64,000 nucleotides of DNA, taken from a virus. The stretch lies in the IMG/VR virus record IMGVR_UViG_3300028800_000096, positions 1-64,000 of that record. The stretch is one strand, 5' to 3'. The notes under the pieces are model-generated. The model was not told the DNA's origin and made no database searches. It saw only the letters and a program-made list of their open reading frames with translations. Each line of letters begins with the position of its first letter. Position 1 is the stretch's first letter. Both the position numbers and the translations under genes were made by a program. This document shows positions 7,914 through 37,312 of the stretch, piece after piece.

Positions 7914-8594
7914 ATGGCTGGTTCATTACTTGCAGCCGCGATCGGAGCGGGTGCGTCACTGCTGGGCGGCAAGATGCAGTCCGATGCCGCCAAGGCCGCC
8001 GCGAAACAACAGCAGAAAGCCATTTCGCAGGGCATCACCGAATCTCAGCCCTATTTCGAGCAAGGTCAGAACTATCTGAAACCTTACATCGGTGCTGGAA
8101 CCGATAGCCTCGGGATCATCAACGACATTCAAGGTTTGAACGGTCCAGAGGCACAAGCCAAAGCCCTGGAGATGTACAAATCGAACCCGAGCGCCGCGCT
8201 TTTGACTGATGTCAACAACGAAGCGGTGCGGAAGACGATCGGCGCTCATGCCGCCGATGGCAGCGGGAATTCAGGCTCGGCAACAGTCGATCTTGCACAG
8301 CGTCTCTCGGCCAACACGCTCAATGATTATTACAACTGGCAGAACCTGTCGTCGGGTCTCGTCAACACGGGAGCCAATGCAGCCGGAGCTGGAGCGAACC
8401 TCTCGCAGAACTACGGCGACACAATTCTCAATGCACGGACAGGACAAGGGACGGCCGCGGCATCAGGAACGGTCGGGGCATCGAATGCGCAGGTCGGCGG
8501 CATGATGGGGGCCACGAACTGGCTGAGCTACCTGAGCGGCCAGAACGGCAACGATCTGACCAAGGCCATCAGTCCCGCATCGACGCCGAGATAG
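7914..8594 (+). CDS. DNA ejection / internal virion protein, Ala-Gly rich
   Basis: 226 residues. The N-terminal segment LLAAAIGAGASLLGGKMQSDAAKAAAKQQQKA is a glycine-zipper-like hydrophobic helix followed by an amphipathic helix. The rest is Ala/Asn/Gly-rich helical repeats with many small residues. This composition and its place before two long Ala-rich proteins match the small ejection proteins of P22 (gp7-like) and T7 (gp14-like) that enter the cell envelope with the DNA. Assignment rests on composition and order. Confidence 0.7.
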   Translation: MAGSLLAAAIGAGASLLGGKMQSDAAKAAAKQQQKAISQGITESQPYFEQGQNYLKPYIGAGTDSLGIINDIQGLNGPEAQAKALEMYKSNPSAALLTDVNNEAVRKTIGAHAADGSGNSGSATVDLAQRLSANTLNDYYNWQNLSSGLVNTGANAAGAGANLSQNYGDTILNARTGQGTAAASGTVGASNAQVGGMMGATNWLSYLSGQNGNDLTKAISPASTPR

Positions 8595-8603
8595 GACGAG
8601 ATC

Positions 8604-10199
8604 ATGGGATTCAATGGAATAGGCGCCTTGCCCGCGCTTCAAGTCGACACCGGCTATCTTTCGAGCCCGACGCCGATCAACGCATTCCGGCAGGGCATGC
8701 AGGATCGCCAGGTCCAGGACCAGACGAATCTTCTGAAGCAGGTCGGGCAAGTCGCGAGCACGGGCAACTATCTCGATGCGGCAAAAACCGCGATGGCCGG
8801 CGGCGACATCAAGACCGGAATGGACATATCGAATTGGGATACGGGCCGGCGAACGAAGGCGATTGATTTCCTGACGGAAGGCGCGCAGCGCGCCGATACG
8901 CCGGAGAAATGGAATGCGCTTGTGGACGTTGCTGAAAACGCGTTCGGCTCTGATCTTGTAGGGAAGTATCGAGACTTCAATTCGCGGCCTGCTGCCTTGA
9001 CGGCCCTGCAATCGGCACAGCTTAAAATCCAGCAGGCGAACGCAGATCGGGAAGCCCAGGAAAGCGCTGCACGTATTCCCTATCTCAATGCCCAGACGAA
9101 ATCTCTCGGTCAGAAAGATGCGTTGAACGAAGCCATCGCAGGTATGGTGACGAATGCGACGAAACCCGATGCGACGGGTGCAACTCCGGCACCAGACCAG
9201 ACGGCACCGACCGTTCAGCCGCAGAGCTTCAACGGTGCTCCAACAATGCCGGGTGTTACTTTGGCGTCAAACACGCAAAGCGTTCCAGGCCCTGTCCCTG
9301 CACCGTCCTCAACTCTGGCGGCGCCATCGCCTACACTTCCAAGGTTCGCCCCGACCGACCTCGCAGCGCGCGCGCCGATTGCTTCTCCCGTCTCATCTGC
9401 CGGACCACAAGGCGGAAATCTCATTTTTGCCGGGGATACCCCCGCGCCGGCCGCTAAGGCTGCTCCGGCTCAACCTGTTTTGATTGACACCCCTTTGGGG
9501 AAGATGACCGCTGCAAAGGCAAAACAACTTGGACTGGCTCTCGCTCTCTCTGGTAAAGGCGATGCCGGAAAGCTTCTGACAGACGCGGCCAATCAAGGAG
9601 AACTCAGCAAAGGCGCAACGACACAGAACGACAAGGAAGAACTCGCGGCGACGGGACAGCTTGCGACGCTCGATGCGGTGAAGGATGCTTTTGACACCAA
9701 GTTTTTGAATATTCCAAATCGGTTCAAGTTCTGGTCCTCGGCACTGGCAGAGAAATTCACAACGTTGTCCCCCAAGGATCAGGCAGATCTCGCGGCTTAT
9801 ACGCAGTTCCGGCAGGCCACCTTCCATAACGTCAACCGGGTTCTGAAAGACCTGTCAGGTACGGCGGTTACGGAAAACGAAATGCAACGGCAGTTGAAGG
9901 ATCAGCCCAACGCCGGCAACGGCATCGGAGACGGGGACTCCCCAACCGAGTTTGCCACTAAGCTCCGGGGTGAACTCGCTTTTGCACATTCCGCCATTGC
10001 CAGAGCGCGGTATCTCCGGGCGCACGGGTTCACCGGAAAACCTTGGGACAGCGGGATTTCAATCGACGACATGCCGGCGATCATCAATCAGCGAGCCAAA
10101 GAAGTCGAACAACAGATCAAGGAGTCCAACCCCAACGTCGATCCAATGAAATTGCAGGGTGCGGTGACGCGGCAGATCAAGCAGGAGTTCGGAATTTGA
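8604..10199 (+). CDS. DNA ejection / internal virion protein
   Basis: 531 residues, helical and Ala/Gln rich. Residues about 190-300 form a Pro/Ala/Thr-rich flexible stretch, and the C-terminal third (residues 350-531) is a helical domain ending MKLQGAVTRQIKQEFGI. No catalytic signature was seen. It is the second of three consecutive long proteins in the ejection block. Its stop overlaps the TTG start of the next gene (TTGA at 10196), which implies coupling. A role as an ejectosome component is inferred. Confidence 0.7.
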   Translation: MGFNGIGALPALQVDTGYLSSPTPINAFRQGMQDRQVQDQTNLLKQVGQVASTGNYLDAAKTAMAGGDIKTGMDISNWDTGRRTKAIDFLTEGAQRADTPEKWNALVDVAENAFGSDLVGKYRDFNSRPAALTALQSAQLKIQQANADREAQESAARIPYLNAQTKSLGQKDALNEAIAGMVTNATKPDATGATPAPDQTAPTVQPQSFNGAPTMPGVTLASNTQSVPGPVPAPSSTLAAPSPTLPRFAPTDLAARAPIASPVSSAGPQGGNLIFAGDTPAPAAKAAPAQPVLIDTPLGKMTAAKAKQLGLALALSGKGDAGKLLTDAANQGELSKGATTQNDKEELAATGQLATLDAVKDAFDTKFLNIPNRFKFWSSALAEKFTTLSPKDQADLAAYTQFRQATFHNVNRVLKDLSGTAVTENEMQRQLKDQPNAGNGIGDGDSPTEFATKLRGELAFAHSAIARARYLRAHGFTGKPWDSGISIDDMPAIINQRAKEVEQQIKESNPNVDPMKLQGAVTRQIKQEFGI

Positions 10200-12604
10200 C
10201 CGATTATTTCTCGCTTGCGACGGGTCTCGACAAGATTGGTGCGTCACAAACGTCGGCTTCAGCGTCGGCGTCGCCAGGATTAAAAGGTGGCATCGGTGAT
10301 CGCTATGACGACTTCGGGAATCTCCGAACGTCTGACGCAGCACCCGTTATCCAGCCCGTCGATTATTTCGCTAAGGCCACCGGTCTTGATAAGATCGGCG
10401 CGCCCTCGGAATCTCCGACCATCGATCCCAATGCGACCCCCGATGCGCCGACATGGCTTGGACGCCGGGTTCAGGATATCGAAGGCAAGCAAGACCCCCG
10501 TTTCAAGGATGTCGGAACCGTATTCGACCAGTTCAGGGGTGAACTTCGTGGTCCAACCGCAACGGCTGCAACCTTCGGTGCAGGCGACGAAGCTATGGCC
10601 GATATCGTCCAGAAAAATCTCGGAGACAAATTCATCCGCCGGGAGAAGGACGCCAACGGCTACGATATCTTTGTCACCAAAGGCCCGGACGGCAAAGAGC
10701 AGAAGGGCTACCTGAACAAGCCAGGCCTTGATCTCGAAGACGTCGCACGAGCCGGATATGGATCGTTGCCATATCTAGCCGTTGGCGGGGTTACGGGGAA
10801 GGTACTGCAGGGCGCAGGCATGGGCTTAAGAGCTGCGGGGCAGTTCATAGCCAATGGGGCCACAAGTCTTGCCGGCGACGTCGGCAATATGGTTCAGGGC
10901 TCGGAACAGGGCATCGACATTCCGAAAGCTGGCGTCGTTGGGACGTTTGGTGCCGCGGCAGAACCTGTCTCAAGCGTCGTCGGATCGATGTTCCGGAGGT
11001 TCTGGATCATCCCCGGCCTGATCGATAAGTCCTCGGGACAGTTGACGGCCAAGGGCATTGCCGCGGCCAAGGAAGCCGGAGTTGATCCGACGCAGATTAG
11101 CCCGGACTTTGCCAAGGCTTTTGCCCAATCGATGGCGACGACAGGGGACCCCGCCGCTGCCGCGACACAAGCCGGATTGGACCGATTTGGTATCCCCGCC
11201 ACGCGAGGTCAGATCACAAAAGATCCTTACCTGTTGACGCAAGAGGAAGGTATGCGCCGGCGTCTCTATGGCCAAGGCGCGCAAGATACCATGCTCGGCT
11301 TTGATAGAGGCCAGCAGGACGCCATTAAGCGCTCGGCTCTGGGCAGTGACGGGACGAGTGCGTCGCCTCCAATCCCGTCCGCGCCGTCGCAAGGCATTGG
11401 CGAGCAGTTGAACCCCGGTCGACAGCCCGGCGCCAACCCCAATGACATCCAACCGGCGACGCTGGGTAATTCCGTGCAGGATGCCATCCAGGGAGCAAGG
11501 CAGAACGCTGCTAGGCAGGAATCGCTACTGTGGGATGATAAGGTCAAGGACCTCTCGGCCACGCCAAAAGCCCTGAATAACCTCCGGCCGCATATCAGTT
11601 CGGCGCTTGCCGACGAGACGGCGTTCACACCCACTGGCCAGAAAATGGCCGAGGCGATCGGAGAATTCGCGGAAGGCACCGCACCGACTGTCGAAGCCGG
11701 CGGCGTCCAGTTAAAGCCGATCAAGAGCGTCGATCAGATGCGGCGGCATCTCGGAAAACTTGTCGGCAGCGCCGAAGACGGAAGCGACAAGCATCAGGCC
11801 GGAAAAATCTATGACGCCTTTAACGATTGGATTGGGGATTCCGCCTCGAAAGCCTTACTTGACGGCGATCCGGCCGCGGCGATGCAGATCGTCAAAGCCA
11901 GAGGATTTACAAAATCCGTCCGGGAACTATTTCAACCTCGCGCCAAGGATGGAACACTAACCCCATCCGGCAACCGCATCAGCAAGATCCTCGACAATGG
12001 CAAGGCCGACAGCGGCGAGGCTGTGATCGATACGATTCTCGGTTCGGGAGGATCGACGCGGATCACCGGCGGAACGGTCGGTGCGGTCACCAATATCAAA
12101 AAAGCACTCGATACCTTTGCCGATCCCGCCGCGGGAAAACAAGCGTGGGACGATATCCGCTTGGCTTATTGGAGTCGGTTGGTTCTCGACAAGAGCGGGA
12201 AACTCTACGGGCCAACGGCCATTCAGAGCAATTTGAACCGCGCTTTCCACGGTCAAAGCTCATTGATGCAGGCGCTTTATTCTCCCCTCGAAATGCGTTC
12301 GATGCGGGAGTTCGAGCTGGCGATTTCCGCCGTCGCCTATAAGCCCCCGAACGCGTCGGGATCAGGGTATACAGCCGCTTCATTCATCAAAGACGGGCTG
12401 ATGAAGATCGTCGACTCCTTCGGACTTGGAGGCCCGGCACGAGCTGCCTTGAAGGGCTTCGGGATTGAGGATGCGTTCGGTGCCGCAGCAGCAAAACAAG
12501 CGGTGCAGAAGATCGTTCGGCCAATCCGTCCCAACCTTGCGCCGATCACGACAAGCACAGGATCAGCACTTTACAACGGTCGGCCTCAGTCTCCGGGCGG
12601 GTGA
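10196..12604 (+). CDS. large internal virion / ejection protein with duplicated N-terminal motif
   Basis: 802 residues from a TTG start that overlaps the previous stop; this start is preferred because upstream codons lie inside the preceding gene. Residues 3-15 and 56-68 carry near-identical copies of DYFxxATGLDKIG. A hydrophobic Ala/Gly segment at roughly residues 190-240 may insert in the membrane. The rest is Ala/Asp-rich helix. Length and place fit the longest ejection protein of short-tailed phages (P22 gp16/gp20 or T7 gp16 position), but no lytic transglycosylase motif is visible. Confidence 0.7.
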   Translation: MTDYFSLATGLDKIGASQTSASASASPGLKGGIGDRYDDFGNLRTSDAAPVIQPVDYFAKATGLDKIGAPSESPTIDPNATPDAPTWLGRRVQDIEGKQDPRFKDVGTVFDQFRGELRGPTATAATFGAGDEAMADIVQKNLGDKFIRREKDANGYDIFVTKGPDGKEQKGYLNKPGLDLEDVARAGYGSLPYLAVGGVTGKVLQGAGMGLRAAGQFIANGATSLAGDVGNMVQGSEQGIDIPKAGVVGTFGAAAEPVSSVVGSMFRRFWIIPGLIDKSSGQLTAKGIAAAKEAGVDPTQISPDFAKAFAQSMATTGDPAAAATQAGLDRFGIPATRGQITKDPYLLTQEEGMRRRLYGQGAQDTMLGFDRGQQDAIKRSALGSDGTSASPPIPSAPSQGIGEQLNPGRQPGANPNDIQPATLGNSVQDAIQGARQNAARQESLLWDDKVKDLSATPKALNNLRPHISSALADETAFTPTGQKMAEAIGEFAEGTAPTVEAGGVQLKPIKSVDQMRRHLGKLVGSAEDGSDKHQAGKIYDAFNDWIGDSASKALLDGDPAAAMQIVKARGFTKSVRELFQPRAKDGTLTPSGNRISKILDNGKADSGEAVIDTILGSGGSTRITGGTVGAVTNIKKALDTFADPAAGKQAWDDIRLAYWSRLVLDKSGKLYGPTAIQSNLNRAFHGQSSLMQALYSPLEMRSMREFELAISAVAYKPPNASGSGYTAASFIKDGLMKIVDSFGLGGPARAALKGFGIEDAFGAAAAKQAVQKIVRPIRPNLAPITTSTGSALYNGRPQSPGG

Positions 12605-24983: not shown

Positions 24984-25120
24984 GTCCGACCTCCAGTCGT
25001 CCGAAACCATCGTCGCTCCATCTGACGGCGCAGGATGCGTTGATAGGCGCGCGAAATGCGCTCCTCTTCGGTCATGTAACCGTTGGCTACACGCCAACTG
25101 TCGAGTTCATCGTCGCTCAT
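24980..25120 (-). CDS. small charged protein, unknown
   Basis: 46 residues (MSDDELDSWRVANGYMTEEE onward, then an Arg-rich helix). Both ends are ATGA overlaps with the neighbours (25117-25120 and 24980-24983), which supports a real coupled gene despite its size. No family recognised. Confidence 0.55.
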   Translation of the reverse strand: MSDDELDSWRVANGYMTEEERISRAYQRILRRQMERRWFRTTGGRT

Positions 25121-25539
25121 GTGCCGCTCCTATTAAGAAGGCCGCGTGCGAAATCGCTGATCTTTATCGGGACCGCCGTCCACTTATCAACAGACGGGGC
25201 GAAGGTTTCCGGGGTTGCCAAAATCTCCAAGCCTCGTTCGAGTTCAGCAATGCGCGCCCTCGCTTCTTCGAGTTGAGACGTAAGGCTGGCGATCTCATCG
25301 GCCATTGCGTCAGGCGTGTCGCATCCGGCGATTATTCCAACGCGAAGCCCTGCATCACGCAGCCGTTCGTCATCCGCACGAATTGCACCGCGCAACGTCT
25401 CTATCTCTCTCTGCTGGCTCTCGATGAGGTCGGCGGCTTCGTCAGAAACTTCCGATGCGTTCGGGCCTCCAAGCCGGAGACGCGAGACAAGTTCCTCGAT
25501 TGCCGATCGTTCTCTCTGCTCTATTGCTGTGTCAGACAT
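25117..25539 (-). CDS. coiled-coil protein, unknown
   Basis: 140 residues. Two coiled-coil stretches (about residues 8-60 and 80-105) with a short loop holding GLRVGIIAGCDTPDAMADE between. Such proteins are common in alphaproteobacterial phage early operons. Coupled to the next gene by ATGA. Confidence 0.65.
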   Translation of the reverse strand: MSDTAIEQRERSAIEELVSRLRLGGPNASEVSDEAADLIESQQREIETLRGAIRADDERLRDAGLRVGIIAGCDTPDAMADEIASLTSQLEEARARIAELERGLEILATPETFAPSVDKWTAVPIKISDFARGLLNRSGT

Positions 25540-26717: not shown

Positions 26718-26929
26718 CTGCGTTTCTCCTGAACAACGAAGTGGAAAATTCGGGTGTCAGGATCGAGCGAAAACGCGAGATTAAATTTGCCGGTCCCATC
26801 GACTTCGGACACCGGAATATCGGCGGCGCCTCCGAGACGATTTAAGAGCACAATCAGCAATTGGCTTTTCATGGCCTCGATAGCCTGCTGGTGATCGTAT
26901 GAAAGATCGTTGAGGCTGAATGCTGTCAT
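26714..26929 (-). CDS. small protein, unknown
   Basis: 71 residues from ATG 26929, which overlaps the upstream stop (TGATG). Its ribosome site AGGAGGGG is supplied by the junction repeat at 26932-26962. Helix plus beta hairpin, ending FHFVVQEKRR. No family recognised. Confidence 0.6.
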   Translation of the reverse strand: MTAFSLNDLSYDHQQAIEAMKSQLLIVLLNRLGGAADIPVSEVDGTGKFNLAFSLDPDTRIFHFVVQEKRR

Positions 26930-27126
26930 CACCCCTCCTGCTGTGATTGGGATTTGGCGCGGCCAATGCAGTAGTGCTCGGCAAATTCTTCAAGTGTGTG
27001 CTCGCCGTTCACGAGGCCAACGATGTGATCGTGCAGTTCTTCGAGGCAAAACGCGTAGTATTTGCGCTCGCGTGAGTTCAGCGCCGCAGAGACGTTTGCC
27101 AATAAGCCGCTAAGGCTAACTTTCAT
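26929..27126 (-). CDS. small helical protein with junction-repeat tail
   Basis: 65 residues. The first 50 are helical (SREKYYAF-like core, HDHIVGLVNGEHTLEEFAEHY); the last 11, GRAKSQSQQEG, are encoded by a DNA repeat also present at 27404-27434 at the end of another gene. Unknown function. Confidence 0.6.
   Translation of the reverse strand: MKVSLSGLLANVSAALNSRERKYYAFCLEELHDHIVGLVNGEHTLEEFAEHYCIGRAKSQSQQEG
26932..26962 (-). repeat. gene-junction repeat A, copy 1
   Basis: 31 bases, one mismatch to copy 2 at 27404-27434. It encodes the tail RAKSQSQQEG of the upstream protein and contains AGGAGGGG, the ribosome site of the downstream gene. Confidence 0.85.
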
Positions 27127-27398
27127 CGCGTATCAGCCTTCTGTAAAGCGGCGCGGTCGCCAGTGATCTTATAAAGCGCCGAGAGACAGGCGGTGATGTC
27201 GTCCCTAACGCTTTGGTCCCATTCGGACCATGCGTTTTCCGCGCTCCATTCGATCTTCACGACGTCGATAATTTGGCAGACATTCGTCAGTGTGCGCTGG
27301 CAGGCAATAATGGCCGCAATCATCTTTGCGCGCTCTGCGAGGCTTTCGATAACGGCTTGATTGTAGCCTTCGTCTCGTTCTGATGGCGTCAGCGTCAT
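27123..27398 (-). CDS. small helical protein, unknown
   Basis: 91 residues from ATG 27398, overlapping the upstream stop (ATGA) with GGAGGGGGGA before it. Helical (MTLTPSERDEGYNQAVIESL, then WSAENAWSEWDQSVRDD). The C-terminal RAALQKADTR is encoded by junction repeat B. Confidence 0.6.
   Translation of the reverse strand: MTLTPSERDEGYNQAVIESLAERAKMIAAIIACQRTLTNVCQIIDVVKIEWSAENAWSEWDQSVRDDITACLSALYKITGDRAALQKADTR
27131..27156 (-). repeat. gene-junction repeat B, copy 1
   Basis: Nearly identical to 27651-27677 but with one base fewer, so the shared DNA is read in different frames at its end (ALQKADTR here, ALTEG there). It carries AGAAGG, a ribosome site for the following gene. Confidence 0.8.
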
Positions 27399-27646
27399 TG
27401 TCCCCCCTCCTGCTCTGATTGGGATTTGGCGCGGGACGTCAGGATGTAGTCGCCAGTCACATCCAATGTGACGTTCAATTTTTCTCGTTTGGCCATCGCT
27501 TCGACATCGACCCAGCAAAGGCATCCACGGTCGTCTCCCCTTGCGCCGTTTGGAGTGTCTGGCAGATAGATGATATCGCCGAGGCGAGCCTTAAGATCGC
27601 CCTGCCGTTCAAGACGTGAGGCACCAATTATGATCGACACGCACAT
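27395..27646 (-). CDS. small protein with junction-repeat tail
   Basis: 83 residues. Core LKARLGDIIYLPDTPNGARG, a CLCWVDVEAMA segment and a C-terminal GDYILTSRAKSQSEQEGGQ whose last part comes from repeat A. Coupled to the next gene by ATGA. Function unknown. Confidence 0.6.
   Translation of the reverse strand: MCVSIIIGASRLERQGDLKARLGDIIYLPDTPNGARGDDRGCLCWVDVEAMAKREKLNVTLDVTGDYILTSRAKSQSEQEGGQ
27404..27434 (-). repeat. gene-junction repeat A, copy 2
   Basis: Partner of 26932-26962. Encodes RAKSQSEQEG and the AGGAGGGG site before the ATG at 27398. Confidence 0.85.
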
Positions 27647-27650
27647 CGCC

Positions 27651-27677
27651 TATCAGCCTTCTGTAAGAGCGGCGCGG
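27651..27677 (-). repeat. gene-junction repeat B, copy 2
   Basis: Partner of 27131-27156 with one extra base. Encodes RAALTEG at the end of the ASCH protein and the AGAAGG site before the next gene. Confidence 0.8.
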
Positions 27678-28027
27678 AACTCGTTCCACATGATCCGGTA
27701 GCCTTTGAACGGCAGCGAGCCGTATTGATTCCGAAACCAGTCGCGCATGGCCGCGAGGCTTTCAAAGCCGTCGATTTTCGCGATGTGGGCAGCGTCGCCG
27801 GAAGGTAGCCGAAAACACCCGACAGCAATGTAATCCTCGGCAATTGTAATCGGCTCGCAGATCGCGCATGTCGCCGTTCCGATTAGCTCGCAAGCGTTGG
27901 TCCTCTGTCCGGTGTAAAGCTGCATCTCGTCGCCTGTCTTGCAGCGTTCTGTGGAGCGGATCGTCTGCGTCTTCCGGCCGGCGCGAATATCGGACGCGAA
28001 TTGCTTCTGAAAATTGATCGCGACCAT
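27653..28027 (-). CDS. ASCH-domain protein
   Basis: 124 residues. INFQKQFASDIRAGRKTQTIR followed by RCKTGDEMQLYTGQRT and a strand ending LIGTATC match the ASCH fold (PUA-like beta barrel), thought to bind RNA or modified nucleotides; some members cleave or bind N4-acetylcytidine. C-terminal FKGYRIMWNEF completes the domain. Several phages carry such a gene. Its stop adjoins the previous gene's stop region without overlap. Confidence 0.8.
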   Translation of the reverse strand: MVAINFQKQFASDIRAGRKTQTIRSTERCKTGDEMQLYTGQRTNACELIGTATCAICEPITIAEDYIAVGCFRLPSGDAAHIAKIDGFESLAAMRDWFRNQYGSLPFKGYRIMWNEFRAALTEG

Positions 28028-28420
28028 CTATCGTTCCTCCTGTGCATCTGATAGAGCGGCGCGGACTTGAAGGCTGATGAATTGCTGAACAGCCTCGGAG
28101 ATAATGCTCGAAATAACAGGTCCGAGTTCGGTGAGGCGCTCAAGATCGTCATGGTCGGCGGCCGACGTCGCAGCACAAGCGACGGCAAAACCCGCCGCGC
28201 GAGACATTTCCATGATCGTGTCAGCGTAGGCCGCGCCCGCCTCCGTCGATTGCCGCGCGCCCTCAATTGCCGCGACGGTGAAAAGCCGAATGAAGCGCGT
28301 CAGTTCGCGGTGATGTTCATTGGACGACTTGAGATACTGGCGTGTTGCGTCCTCAAGACCTTCCCAGCCGTCCCCGCGCTGCCCGTCTCCGATCAATTGT
28401 GCAAGCGTTGGAATTGTCAT
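28028..28420 (-). CDS. helical protein with SDAQ junction tail, unknown
   Basis: 130 residues, mostly helix, with an Ala-rich core (AGFAVACAATSAADHDD) that could bury in a bundle. Ends RAALSDAQEER, the tail encoded by repeat C. Unknown function. Confidence 0.6.
   Translation of the reverse strand: MTIPTLAQLIGDGQRGDGWEGLEDATRQYLKSSNEHHRELTRFIRLFTVAAIEGARQSTEAGAAYADTIMEMSRAAGFAVACAATSAADHDDLERLTELGPVISSIISEAVQQFISLQVRAALSDAQEER
28032..28064 (-). repeat. gene-junction repeat C, copy 1
   Basis: Shares TCAGATGCACAGG..GAAC with the junctions at 28421 and 28628, and GCCGCGCCGCTCT with repeat B. Encodes SDAQEER and AGGAGGAA, the ribosome site of the ASCH gene. Confidence 0.8.
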
Positions 28421-28620
28421 CGTTCCCCCTGTGCATCAGACCGGCGTTGTACTTCTCCGCGCCACAGCAACCCGACTAACTCGAATGGACCTACGAAGCG
28501 GGCATCGCCGAACATACAGTTACGCAGCATTGCGATAGCGAAAGCGATGAGCCAAATGCCGACGCCGATTTGCGCAATCGCCGTCAACAGGTCAAAGATG
28601 ATGAAAAGCCAATCTGTCAT
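28417..28620 (-). CDS. small membrane protein with SDAQ junction tail
   Basis: 67 residues: one or two membrane helices (about residues 3-33: LFIIFDLLTAIAQIGVGIWL), a loop, and a C-terminus RRSDAQGER encoded by repeat C. ATGA overlaps at both ends. Unknown function. Confidence 0.6.
   Translation of the reverse strand: MTDWLFIIFDLLTAIAQIGVGIWLIAFAIAMLRNCMFGDARFVGPFELVGLLWRGEVQRRSDAQGER
28421..28446 (-). repeat. gene-junction repeat C, copy 2
   Basis: Encodes SDAQGER with AGGGGGAA as ribosome site of the next gene at 28420. Confidence 0.75.
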
Positions 28621-29066
28621 CTGGTCGGGTTCCCCTGTGCATCTGATACGCGCGCCTCACCAAGAGAAGAACGGGCTTTTTGGACGAGATCAAACATAGG
28701 TCCGTAGTGCTCGCCGTACTCGCCGCCCATGATCGCCTCAGCTTCTTTAATTGCTGCCTCGTATAGATCCAGCGCATCCCGCATTGTATCGATAAGGGCC
28801 TGATGTTGGTTCAAGCTATCAGCGGAGCAAGGTTCTTCTGGTTTGCGTTCACCTTGCCTTGGGAGGAATTGCACGACCACATCGCCGGGACCGACGACAG
28901 TCGTTACCGGAACACGAATAGTGATGAATATTCCGTTCAGCCGATTGCCATCGTCATCTTCCGGATCGAAAACTGCGGAATACATCGTGCCGCGAACGAC
29001 CTGGTAGGGTGAACGCATTAGCTCATCCGAGAGTGACCCTGTTTGTTGAACCATTTCCTTTCCCAT
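28617..29066 (-). CDS. phage protein with SDAQ junction tail, unknown
   Basis: 149 residues from ATG 29066 (AGGAG nine bases before), preferred to ATG 29099, which lacks a site. The middle is a beta-rich domain (IFITIRVPVTTVVGPGDVVV), followed by an amphipathic helix and the C-terminal RVSDAQGNPTR encoded by repeat C. Unknown function. Confidence 0.6.
   Translation of the reverse strand: MGKEMVQQTGSLSDELMRSPYQVVRGTMYSAVFDPEDDDGNRLNGIFITIRVPVTTVVGPGDVVVQFLPRQGERKPEEPCSADSLNQHQALIDTMRDALDLYEAAIKEAEAIMGGEYGEHYGPMFDLVQKARSSLGEARVSDAQGNPTR
28628..28655 (-). repeat. gene-junction repeat C, copy 3
   Basis: Encodes SDAQGN and AGGGGAA, the ribosome site of the gene starting at 28620. Confidence 0.75.
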
Positions 29067-29127
29067 TCTTTTATTCTCCTGATCCTTTAGAGCGTTCATC
29101 CCGTCGTCATTCCCGTCCGTGATGAGG

Positions 29128-29592
29128 TCATGAGGTGGGGTCCTTCGCGCTCTTTGGCTTTCGGTGAGCTAGGATGATGCGCGTCATGGCAGAAGCATCC
29201 GGGCTTGCTGCCCAAAGTGCCGCTGCTAGTTCGATCGGTTCATCGATGCCATGATCGCGAAACCATCCCGGCTCTCGTTTGGCGTTCGGCGCATCGACTT
29301 CGACGCCCATCATGTGATGCGCGTGGCATAGCGGGACCAAGTAGCGATCGGTTGCTTTCCGCCCCATTGAGCGCTCTGCGGCAGCGGGTCCGTGCTTAAG
29401 GTGGTGCGGCTCGACTCCGACGACGTTGCAGCCCGGAATGCAGCATGGAAGTTTTTGGATCGCGAGCTTATGCGCCTCGCTATTGCCGGGGCGCTTCGCA
29501 CGCCTCTTTTTCGGAGCAAGACGTTTTGACTTCTCCCGTTCTGTGACGGTAGGACGGAAGTTCCCTATGACCTTCTCTCCGAGGTAAGCCAT
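29128..29592 (-). CDS. HNH-type nuclease of the DUF968 kind
   Basis: 154 residues from the ATG overlapping the upstream stop (TGATG). Basic N-terminus (EKSKRLAPKKRRAKR), then CCIPGC, VEPHHLKHG and LVPLCHAHHMMG, the Cys/His layout of DUF968/HNH proteins of phage recombination regions, with a C-terminal helix. Likely a structure-specific nuclease for recombination intermediates. Confidence 0.8.
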   Translation of the reverse strand: MAYLGEKVIGNFRPTVTEREKSKRLAPKKRRAKRPGNSEAHKLAIQKLPCCIPGCNVVGVEPHHLKHGPAAAERSMGRKATDRYLVPLCHAHHMMGVEVDAPNAKREPGWFRDHGIDEPIELAAALWAASPDASAMTRIILAHRKPKSAKDPTS

Positions 29593-29837
29593 CACGCAGC
29601 CTCCTTGATCGCGTCGAGTTTTGCTCCCATGCCGATCAACCTGCGGAGTGTTTCAAAGAGTTCAGGTTCTTCTTTTCTGAGACGCATGAGTTCCTTCAAA
29701 ACAAGTTCGCCCTTTGCCATCCATTCGAGAGTCTTGATGGCTTGCCCTAAGCCTGAGCGAATGTCCTCGTTGCGAGCCAAGGGGAGACAATCCCGGAGGC
29801 ACGAAGCTTGGAAGGCGAGGCTTCTGAGTTCGCTCAT
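29592..29837 (-). CDS. small helical protein, unknown
   Basis: 81 residues, all helix with three Cys/Leu-rich faces (CLRDCLPLARNEDIRSGL). Sits between the methyltransferase and HNH genes with overlaps at both ends. Unknown function. Confidence 0.55.
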   Translation of the reverse strand: MSELRSLAFQASCLRDCLPLARNEDIRSGLGQAIKTLEWMAKGELVLKELMRLRKEEPELFETLRRLIGMGAKLDAIKEAA

Positions 29838-35687: not shown

Positions 35688-36389
35688 CTAAAAGTGATAA
35701 TTCATGCCGACGCGAACAGAATCCGCATCGAGGGTCGTATGATTTCCATAGCCGTGGCCGACAGGAGGATCGGTCAGAGAGGTCTGATCGCCGTTCTCAG
35801 TCCCGAAGTCGTAGTGGGCATATTCGAGCTTGAGGCTGATGTTCTCGGTCAGCTTTCTCTCAACGCCGCCACCGACAACAAATCCCGTGAACGTGTCCGT
35901 GCCGTGTGTCTGATAGCCTTTGGCTGTCGTCGTCTGCGTGGCTTCGCCCGTGTAGAGAGAAAAGCCGCCCTTTGCGAAGATCAGGGTCGCCGGATCAATC
36001 AGGAAGCCTACGCGGCCCGTGAAGGCGCCGAGGAAGCCACCATCAAGTGAAATGTCCTGATGGTTGCCAGACTGCGACGAAGGCGTCGCGATGCTGCCCG
36101 AAAGATCGGCATAATCGAGGTCCGCTTCAACGCCGAAGACGAAGCGATCCATCTGCAGATTGTAGCCGAGAGTGCCACCGCCAACGAAGCCGCCGACACT
36201 GTTATTAAAGGGTCCGACAAACTTGGGGTCCTTGCCCCAGTCCTTCACGTTGTCCGTGGTCGTGGCATCGCCCCAGACATAGCCAAGGTTTGCGCCAGCA
36301 TAAGCACCGGTCCATGTGTCACCGGCCTGTACCGGGCTCGCTGCAAGGATCGCAGCAATTGAAACAGCAGTTAGAGTAAGAGCTTTCAT
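35688..36389 (-). CDS. outer-membrane beta-barrel (Omp25/31-type porin-family)
   Basis: 233 residues from ATG 36389 after AAGGGGGATATA. A cleavable signal peptide (MKALTLTAVSIAAILAASPVQA, cut after Ala22 or so) is followed by WTGAYAGANLGYVWG, the hallmark start of Omp25/31-like barrels of rhizobiales, then eight amphipathic strands with turns, and the terminal DSVRVGMNYHF ends in Phe as required for outer-membrane assembly. It sits in the early operon, 20 bases behind Bet. Known phage barrels alter the host surface; superinfection exclusion is possible. Confidence 0.88.
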   Translation of the reverse strand: MKALTLTAVSIAAILAASPVQAGDTWTGAYAGANLGYVWGDATTTDNVKDWGKDPKFVGPFNNSVGGFVGGGTLGYNLQMDRFVFGVEADLDYADLSGSIATPSSQSGNHQDISLDGGFLGAFTGRVGFLIDPATLIFAKGGFSLYTGEATQTTTAKGYQTHGTDTFTGFVVGGGVERKLTENISLKLEYAHYDFGTENGDQTSLTDPPVGHGYGNHTTLDADSVRVGMNYHF

Positions 36390-36409: not shown

Positions 36410-37312
36410 TTATTGAACGGCTTCGAACGCCTTCTTGAGTTCGAGTGCCCCGGCCTTGTCCTTCGCCCAATACTCTTTCAGCGCCGCAGCATTGCGGTTG
36501 TGGAACATGCGAACACGGTCGGGATCTTCAGACTTGTGCTGAGCTATGAAGGCGAGAACCTTGTCGCCAAAGACGCCGACAGGTTCGCGAGCAAGCGGCT
36601 CGCCATCGCACCAGTCGATCGTGATGCAGTTCGCACCACCGATGAGTTCGAAGCGCCGCTTTTGTTCCTCGCCTTCGATGATCTCGGTTGCGGTTAGGTT
36701 CAGGACTTCCGCCTGATCCAGTTCGCCTTCGGAATAGGAACCGGCCGTCTCTTCTGGGAATGCCTTGCGGATGACGGCAGCTTCAACGCACTTCGCCATC
36801 ATCGTTTCTGGCATCGTCCACCAGTTCTTTTTCTTGCGATCGAGAGTGAACTTTCCGGTCGGTTTGTTGTTCTCCCAAACCTCTTTGATCGGCGCGCGTT
36901 CTTCCCAGCGGAGTTTTTCCGAAACCTCAAACCATTCGCCGTGTGAATGGACGAAAACAGACACCTCGCAATCGACCATGCCGGTCGGATTGCTGTCACT
37001 CTTGAGTTCTTCGTCGTAGGTGAAGCGGGCAGGGCGATTATCTGGTCGATAGTTCTTCGACCGTGCGGCGATCTTGCGATAAAGGCCAATGCCGAGAACG
37101 GGCACCACGTTGCGTGACGGCTCGTCAGGGTCGAAGCAGAAAAAATATATATCCCTTACAAAAGGGTTCGCCCCATAGATTTCGCACCATTCGATTGCTT
37201 CATCTATTTCGGCGCCTCGCAGTTCCTTACCGACCGTCGCTTTGAATAGCGACAGCTTGCGGGCATCTAGGCGGGTGAGAGCTTTGTTTGTGATTGGAAC
37301 AATATTAGACAT
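36410..37312 (-). CDS. bet: single-strand annealing recombinase, Bet/RecT type
   Basis: 300 residues from ATG 37312 (AAGGAG), not the upstream start. TRLDARKLSLFKATVGKEL and IEWCEIYGANPFVRDIYF open the Bet family core, VVPVLGIGLYRKIAARS continues it, and NWWTMPETMMAKCVEAAVIRKAFPEE is the typical C-terminal motif. Promotes annealing of complementary single strands in phage recombination. No lambda-exo or RecE-like exonuclease gene is visible beside it. Confidence 0.9.
   Translation of the reverse strand: MSNIVPITNKALTRLDARKLSLFKATVGKELRGAEIDEAIEWCEIYGANPFVRDIYFFCFDPDEPSRNVVPVLGIGLYRKIAARSKNYRPDNRPARFTYDEELKSDSNPTGMVDCEVSVFVHSHGEWFEVSEKLRWEERAPIKEVWENNKPTGKFTLDRKKKNWWTMPETMMAKCVEAAVIRKAFPEETAGSYSEGELDQAEVLNLTATEIIEGEEQKRRFELIGGANCITIDWCDGEPLAREPVGVFGDKVLAFIAQHKSEDPDRVRMFHNRNAAALKEYWAKDKAGALELKKAFEAVQ

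Follow-up and report, generated by a model that had tools for sequence, protein, structure and literature searches.

Why should neighbouring small genes with unrelated bodies end in the same short stretch of DNA? The question is raised by a leftward operon in the 64,000-nt stretch analysed here (the window), which comes from an IMG/VR virus record of 64.9 kb. An earlier note, made from the sequence alone, had described two repeats, B and A, alternating at four consecutive gene ends of this operon, and had proposed either that whole genes are exchanged at conserved boundaries or that a two-gene unit was duplicated and its gene bodies were then replaced.

Repeated gene junctions in the window

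All four repeats are present, each at the end of a gene on the minus strand: an ASCH-like gene of 124 aa (27653..28027; PHROG 8581, E 9e-9; Pfam ASCH below cut-off) ends in junction B1 (27644..27677), a gene of 83 aa (27395..27646, no family match) in A1 (27395..27434), a gene of 91 aa (27123..27398, family matches no better than chance) in B2 (27123..27156) and a gene of 65 aa (26929..27126, no family match) in A2 (26929..26962). The alternation is, however, only the last part of a longer run; the earlier note had missed a third version, C (...TCAGATGCACAGGAGGAACGATGA), at 28028, 28417 and 28617. These are the next three junctions upstream, likewise on the minus strand, at the ends of genes of 130 aa (28028..28420; C1, 28028..28063), for which relatives were searched and none found, of 67 aa (28417..28620; C2, 28417..28446) and of 160 aa (28617..29099; C3, 28617..28655). 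The window thus contains seven consecutive repeated junctions in the order C-C-C-B-A-B-A, the gene ends of which read, in coding direction, GCGCGCGTATCAGATGCACAGGGGAACCCGACCAGATGA (C3), CGCCGGTCTGATGCACAGGGGGAACGATGA (C2), CGCGCCGCTCTATCAGATGCACAGGAGGAACGATAG (C1), CCGCGCCGCTCTTACAGAAGGCTGATAGGCGATG (B1), CGCGCCAAATCCCAATCAGAGCAGGAGGGGGGACAATGA (A1), CCGCGCCGCTTTACAGAAGGCTGATACGCGATGA (B2) and CGCGCCAAATCCCAATCACAGCAGGAGGGGTGATGA (A2).

The two copies of repeat A (26932-26962 and 27404-27434) were recovered at the same coordinates as before and with the single mismatch reported over 31 nt (30/31 identity); their 28-nt core occurs twice within the 64 kb and in none of 100 shuffles. Repeat B is found at 27131-27156 (26 nt) and 27651-27677 (27 nt), with a common 15-nt core and a one-base indel (TGTAA-AGCGG vs TGTAAGAGCGG), and the likeness reaches the next start codon (27123-27156 and 27644-27677; 34 vs 33 nt, one indel). 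Because this indel shifts the reading frame, the same DNA is read in two frames and the protein ends differ (RAALTEG vs RAALQKADTR), again in agreement with what had been noticed before. Exact repeats within the operon reach 19 nt, whereas those of 200 codon-shuffled versions do not exceed 16 nt.

Each junction holds the tail of one gene with a Shine-Dalgarno-like site inside the tail codons, and in most of them stop and start overlap as ATGA, so that the description of the repeats as gene tail plus ribosome site of the next gene is accurate. The tails, each running to the stop codon, are ...ARVSDAQGNPTR (C3) and ...RRSDAQGER (C2), both with ATGA overlap; ...RAALSDAQEER (C1), with the site AGGAGG and the start of the ASCH-like gene; ...RAALTEG (B1), with the Shine-Dalgarno site and start of gene 27395; ...RAKSQSEQEGGQ (A1), with ATGA overlap with gene 27123; ...RAALQKADTR (B2), with ATGA overlap with gene 26929; and ...RAKSQSQQEG (A2), with the site AGGAGG and the start of gene 26714.

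The bodies between the repeats are indeed unrelated: the eight proteins that end in or flank the window junctions have no pairwise body similarity (Smith-Waterman z -1.3 to 1.9), and the similarity of the slot DNA between the junctions lies within the shuffled range. Repeats A and B are confined to these borders, with no other occurrence in the window. Conserved linkers that were found inside some genes are sequences other than A and B and extend the pattern.

An ordered junction series in related phages

Contig L015 carries a relative (97% identical) of the window methyltransferase. Relatives of this enzyme in genomes (62%) belong to Aureimonas, Methylopila and a Xanthobacteraceae bacterium, which suggests alphaproteobacterial hosts; one further match (45%) is in an actinobacterium. 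One gene of L015 ends in RAALSAPSTDAKGRG, near the C tail of the window, and a pattern made from this tail led to G001 (648028034_000005), G003, G004 and G006 (all 3300048574) and G005 (3300003489), while a second pattern gave the additional contigs L166 and L167. Eight relatives were compared, seven of which are metagenome contigs, as is a further contig, L061; the IMG number of G001 we take to be of the isolate type.

In these eight contigs about ten junction sequences of ~25-45 nt recur in order, each made up of the last codons of one gene, a Shine-Dalgarno site and an overlapping stop/start. Their tails are EEAGL (J1), AHHASKKA (J2), LSTDEV (J3), RAALSAPSTDAKVRG (J4), APSTEKGRG (J5), LEAAE (J6), PSTNGAVK (J7, then VSET of the next gene), RALLSESKT (J8), TTLEASERGGGE (J9), EEAKEKADV (J10), AKHTEKAG (J11) and HTQSKEG (J12). 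Counting first occurrences, the order was concordant in 242 of 243 comparisons and discordant in one. The expectation that related phages would carry repeats at such borders is therefore borne out by the J series, but not by A and B themselves: exact repeat A had no match in viral_contigs, the six matches of the exact B core all lie in unrelated DNA, and neither exact search nor alignment against the related contigs revealed a relative with A and B. Junction C1 resembles J4 (C vs J4, score 15-18 of about 36), and A and B score at background against the relatives; that A and B are close kin of the J series is only a suggestion.

In searches outside these relatives, the J4/J5 pattern had no match in genome_contigs, the 48-nt J4 gave partial chance matches only against phage and plasmid records, and J8- and J4-like patterns were at chance level in 397 genomes of the order of Methylopila (1 match for one pattern; for the other, 3 matches in 2 genomes vs 6 control matches). 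As far as searched, then, only this phage group carries the junctions.

The edges of the conserved stretches are sharp. With six junctions aligned at the stop codon, identity rises from a background of ~25% to ~90-100% over ~25-35 nt and returns to background; at 40 nt or more upstream of the stop it is ~25%, near background, for most junctions, and its 3' edge falls at the next start codon or, for J7 and less so for J8, ~7-10 nt inside the next gene. Across phages, 114 gene pairs had alike tail DNA and unrelated bodies, against 2 in control windows 60 nt upstream. The 114 pairs are non-independent, as they come down to about ten junction types in related phages, and these genomes were also the source of the anchors, a choice that explains neither the junction order nor the sharp edges. 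A further 28 pairs were alike in tail and body, which indicates that some slots do not turn over, and 14 had alike tails and partly similar bodies. Among 229 short cross-phage homology islands of at most 50 nt, 108 crossed a gene end, where random placement predicts 24 crossings with a maximum of 38 in 500 trials. A within-contig test on called genes gave 5 junction pairs vs 1 control pair, an underestimate because the codon-usage gene caller missed several small genes.

One pair of J junctions often encloses unrelated genes in different phages. In G001, G003, G005, G006 (VSEK), L166 and L167 the J7-J8 slot is occupied by VSET...LLSESK genes that mostly differ from one another, and in G004 by another gene, also ending LLSESK. 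The slot genes have two inner constant stretches, EIASLRAQLDEA and (AA)DEARRKAIEE, that are near-identical as DNA, from which exchange seems to occur also at sub-gene scale. A gene like them lies in the window (25117..25539, minus strand; MSDT-variable-DEIASLxxQLEEA-variable-RGLLNRSGT), and in all of these genes constant blocks are split by mostly unrelated segments, i.e. they are mosaic within the gene. Elsewhere the content of a slot is nearly the same in two phages, as for J4-J5 (97% identical, G003 vs G006), J3-J4 (94%, G004 vs G005) and J10-J11 (93%, G003 vs the second J10-J11 of G005). The J4 copy of G003 has one extra base and no in-frame stop, so that it reads into the next gene and the tail becomes an internal linker. 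Together with repeat B, where the frame changed and the DNA was kept, this indicates that it is the DNA which is conserved and not the peptide. A separate observation is a junction-like tail, RAALSGSPAPSTD, at 9490-9540 of L061 within an open frame of 377 aa, as if two genes had been fused.

The ASCH-like gene occurs in two different slots. In the window C1 precedes it and B1 forms its end; in L061 a gene with 80% identity to its body sits in another slot and has another tail, the homology (window 27675-28028) running from the ATG through the codon preceding the tail. The neighbours of the L061 gene are homologues of window genes 29592 and 29128; ...GGGAGGCCGCATGATGG precedes and ...CGGAGGCTGCGTGATGG follows it, and near-identical copies of the 16-nt sequence GGAGGC[C/T]GC[A/G]TGATGG lie on each side. 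In the window, genes 29592 and 29128 are adjacent with a single ...GGAGGCTGCGTGATGG (29589..29604, minus strand) between them and no ASCH gene at that site, and in L015 another gene occupies this place. In this one case the boundary thus occurs once where the gene is missing and twice where it is present, as conserved-boundary mosaicism would have it.

Probable exchange at gene boundaries and its alternatives

Judged from sequence comparison, the best explanation, which we hold to be quite probable, is that genes are replaced, inserted and duplicated by homologous recombination at short boundary sequences. The first proposal of the earlier note, whole-gene exchange at conserved boundaries, gains weight from relatives that keep the junctions and their order around different genes and from the ASCH gene in its second slot. 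For A and B as exchange sites the support is by analogy, since no relative that carries them was found.

The operon would then be a row of gene slots set apart by short junction sequences, each encoding the C-terminal 5-15 residues of the preceding protein, with the Shine-Dalgarno site within those codons, and the stop/start of the next gene. An overlapping stop/start with a Shine-Dalgarno site is expected to couple translation, and an open reading frame put between two junctions would be terminated and followed by a working start signal; the tails probably serve mainly as translation adaptors, not as functional peptides. Since related phages share conserved junctions, one gene body could be replaced by another through homologous recombination at two adjacent ones, and recombination between copies of one junction could insert, delete or duplicate a gene together with its junction. 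The C-C-C-B-A-B-A run of the window would be such a row, with A and B each used twice, and the pattern of junction states points to homologous recombination as their origin.

Annealing proteins of the RecT/ERF kind act on short homologies, which makes junctions of ~30 nt plausible substrates, and the phages' own proteins of this type could plausibly be the agents of exchange. The window encodes a RecT-family single-strand annealing protein (36410..37312, minus strand), a candidate enzyme for short-homology exchange, as does G006, and G003 encodes an ERF-family protein and a YqaJ-type nuclease. The annealing protein upstream of the small-gene operon differs between G003 (ERF) and G006 (RecT), and both regions have EAAE tails. 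In the leftward operon of the window, the RecT gene is followed directly by a gene for an outer-membrane beta-barrel protein (35688-36389; PF13505, E 1e-18), and a frame is placed similarly in L061 (4043-4729). It is tempting, though doubtful, to go further and regard the junctions as an evolved addressing system, in which ordered slot addresses of ~30 bases would act both as translation adaptor and as homology arm for the annealing protein, and which might be kept so that accessory genes swap singly while the operon stays intact.

Alternatively, the window run might have arisen by tandem duplication of a B-A two-gene unit and fast divergence of the bodies, with no exchange between phages, as the B-A-B-A order, the A copies with 30 of 31 positions identical and the parallel J10-J11-J10-J11 run of G005 could indicate. 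But body lengths differ (124/91 and 83/65 aa), the bodies retain no protein or DNA similarity next to almost identical ends, and the ASCH-like body has another tail in another phage. As unlike bodies and one body with two tails still call for replacement, divergence alone is insufficient and we consider this explanation unlikely. The second proposal of the earlier note, in which a two-gene unit is duplicated and its bodies are replaced afterwards, may account for the B-A-B-A run.

Somewhat less likely again is that the junctions resemble each other as selected translation-coupling signals, and that genes, having entered by illegitimate recombination, gained or retained good start signals. A Shine-Dalgarno-like site in every junction and the ATGA overlap in most are what one would expect in this case, and the SAS repeats of Cluster K mycobacteriophages, of unknown function, are also linked to starts (PMC3203893). 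However, the identity over ~25-35 nt includes codons upstream of the Shine-Dalgarno site, and versions that differ from slot to slot hold their order (242 to 1); a generic start signal would need no slot-specific, ordered versions. An artefact of metagenome assembly, with contigs joined at short repeats, could be suspected for G003, G004 and G006, which come from one metagenome and have common stretches of 30-48 nt, yet it is highly improbable, as the series is found also in G001, presumably an isolate, and in contigs of four further metagenomes and, in diverged form, in L061, which comes from one more metagenome. Least probable of all is integron-like, site-specific capture of cassettes with the junction as recombination site: genes with a short 3' element in head-to-tail arrays recall it, but different slots have different junction sequences in a kept order, a search of the region against Rfam returned no match and thus no known structured RNA element, and the sole integrase examined, at the operon end, is of the ordinary phage type.

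Known systems and wider relevance

Boundary exchange at the homologous junctions proposed here has its closest published counterpart in genes 67 and 68 of the Cluster I mycobacteriophage Island3, which have a common 3' end of ~60 bp (18 C-terminal residues), one of the two genes being missing in Brujita, where one recombinant copy is left. Homologous recombination at the short stretch is proposed by the authors, who call it the first example in mycobacteriophages (PMC3029335). One gene was thus gained or lost between duplicated gene ends. That case, however, is one event at one junction, whereas here about ten junction types stand in series in at least eight phages and also carry the ribosome site of the next gene. 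Conserved boundary sequences have been proposed as homologous recombination sites for phage mosaicism, as cited in PMC3029335, a paper which states that they cannot be found at most mosaic borders. The likeness lies in short conserved sequences between exchanged modules, with unrelated modules at a common border (114 vs 2 pairs, identity falling to background on both sides) and, in the J slots of the relatives, different modules at one position; here the sequences occur at many consecutive single-gene borders and are slot-specific and ordered.

Other systems are more distant. The SAS/ESAS repeats of Cluster K also lie at the starts of small non-structural genes, often beside different genes, but they are uniform, one 13-bp sequence for all genes (PMC3203893), whereas the junctions described here differ per slot and include the tail codons of the preceding gene; the SAS sequence GGGATAGGAGCCC has no match in the window with up to 2 mismatches allowed. 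The Ea22 genes of lambda and Stx phages are mosaic within one gene (PMC10834534) and resemble the J7-J8 slot genes in their constant coiled-coil segments with replaced terminal parts, but window gene 25117 has no match to Pfam Ead_Ea22. Rad52-like phage recombinases, with relaxed homologous recombination and exchange between diverged phages, are described in PMC3945230, and RecT/ERF genes are likewise present here; to our knowledge that paper does not present gene junctions of ~30 nt as exchange sites. A limited literature search found no published description of an ordered set of tail-plus-start junctions. Gene exchange at boundaries is thus known in kind, and its scale here is unusual.

Whether phage mosaicism arises via short homologies or by random joining and selection is described as debated (PMC3945230). 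In this phage group, boundary sequences occur at border after border, ordered, with a sharp edge at the start codon and with annealing proteins in the same genomes, and such natural junctions make the question testable through exchange frequencies. As a practical rule, accessory genes can be sought as frames between two known junctions, and C-terminal tails should be treated with caution, since a tail may be a property of the slot rather than of the protein family.

Some further observations concern the contigs L015 and L061. A pentapeptide-repeat protein of L015 (8731-9483; PF00805, E 7e-37) has the J3 tail LSTDEVL at its end. In L061, a long run of near-identical short units (GACGCTGCT/GCCGCTGCT) at 8440-8890 encodes an Ala-rich repeat in a frame of 329 aa, and consecutive genes at 10040-11063 end in a repeated tail of their own (PSAGVTAP...GK at the stop), i.e. 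another junction family.
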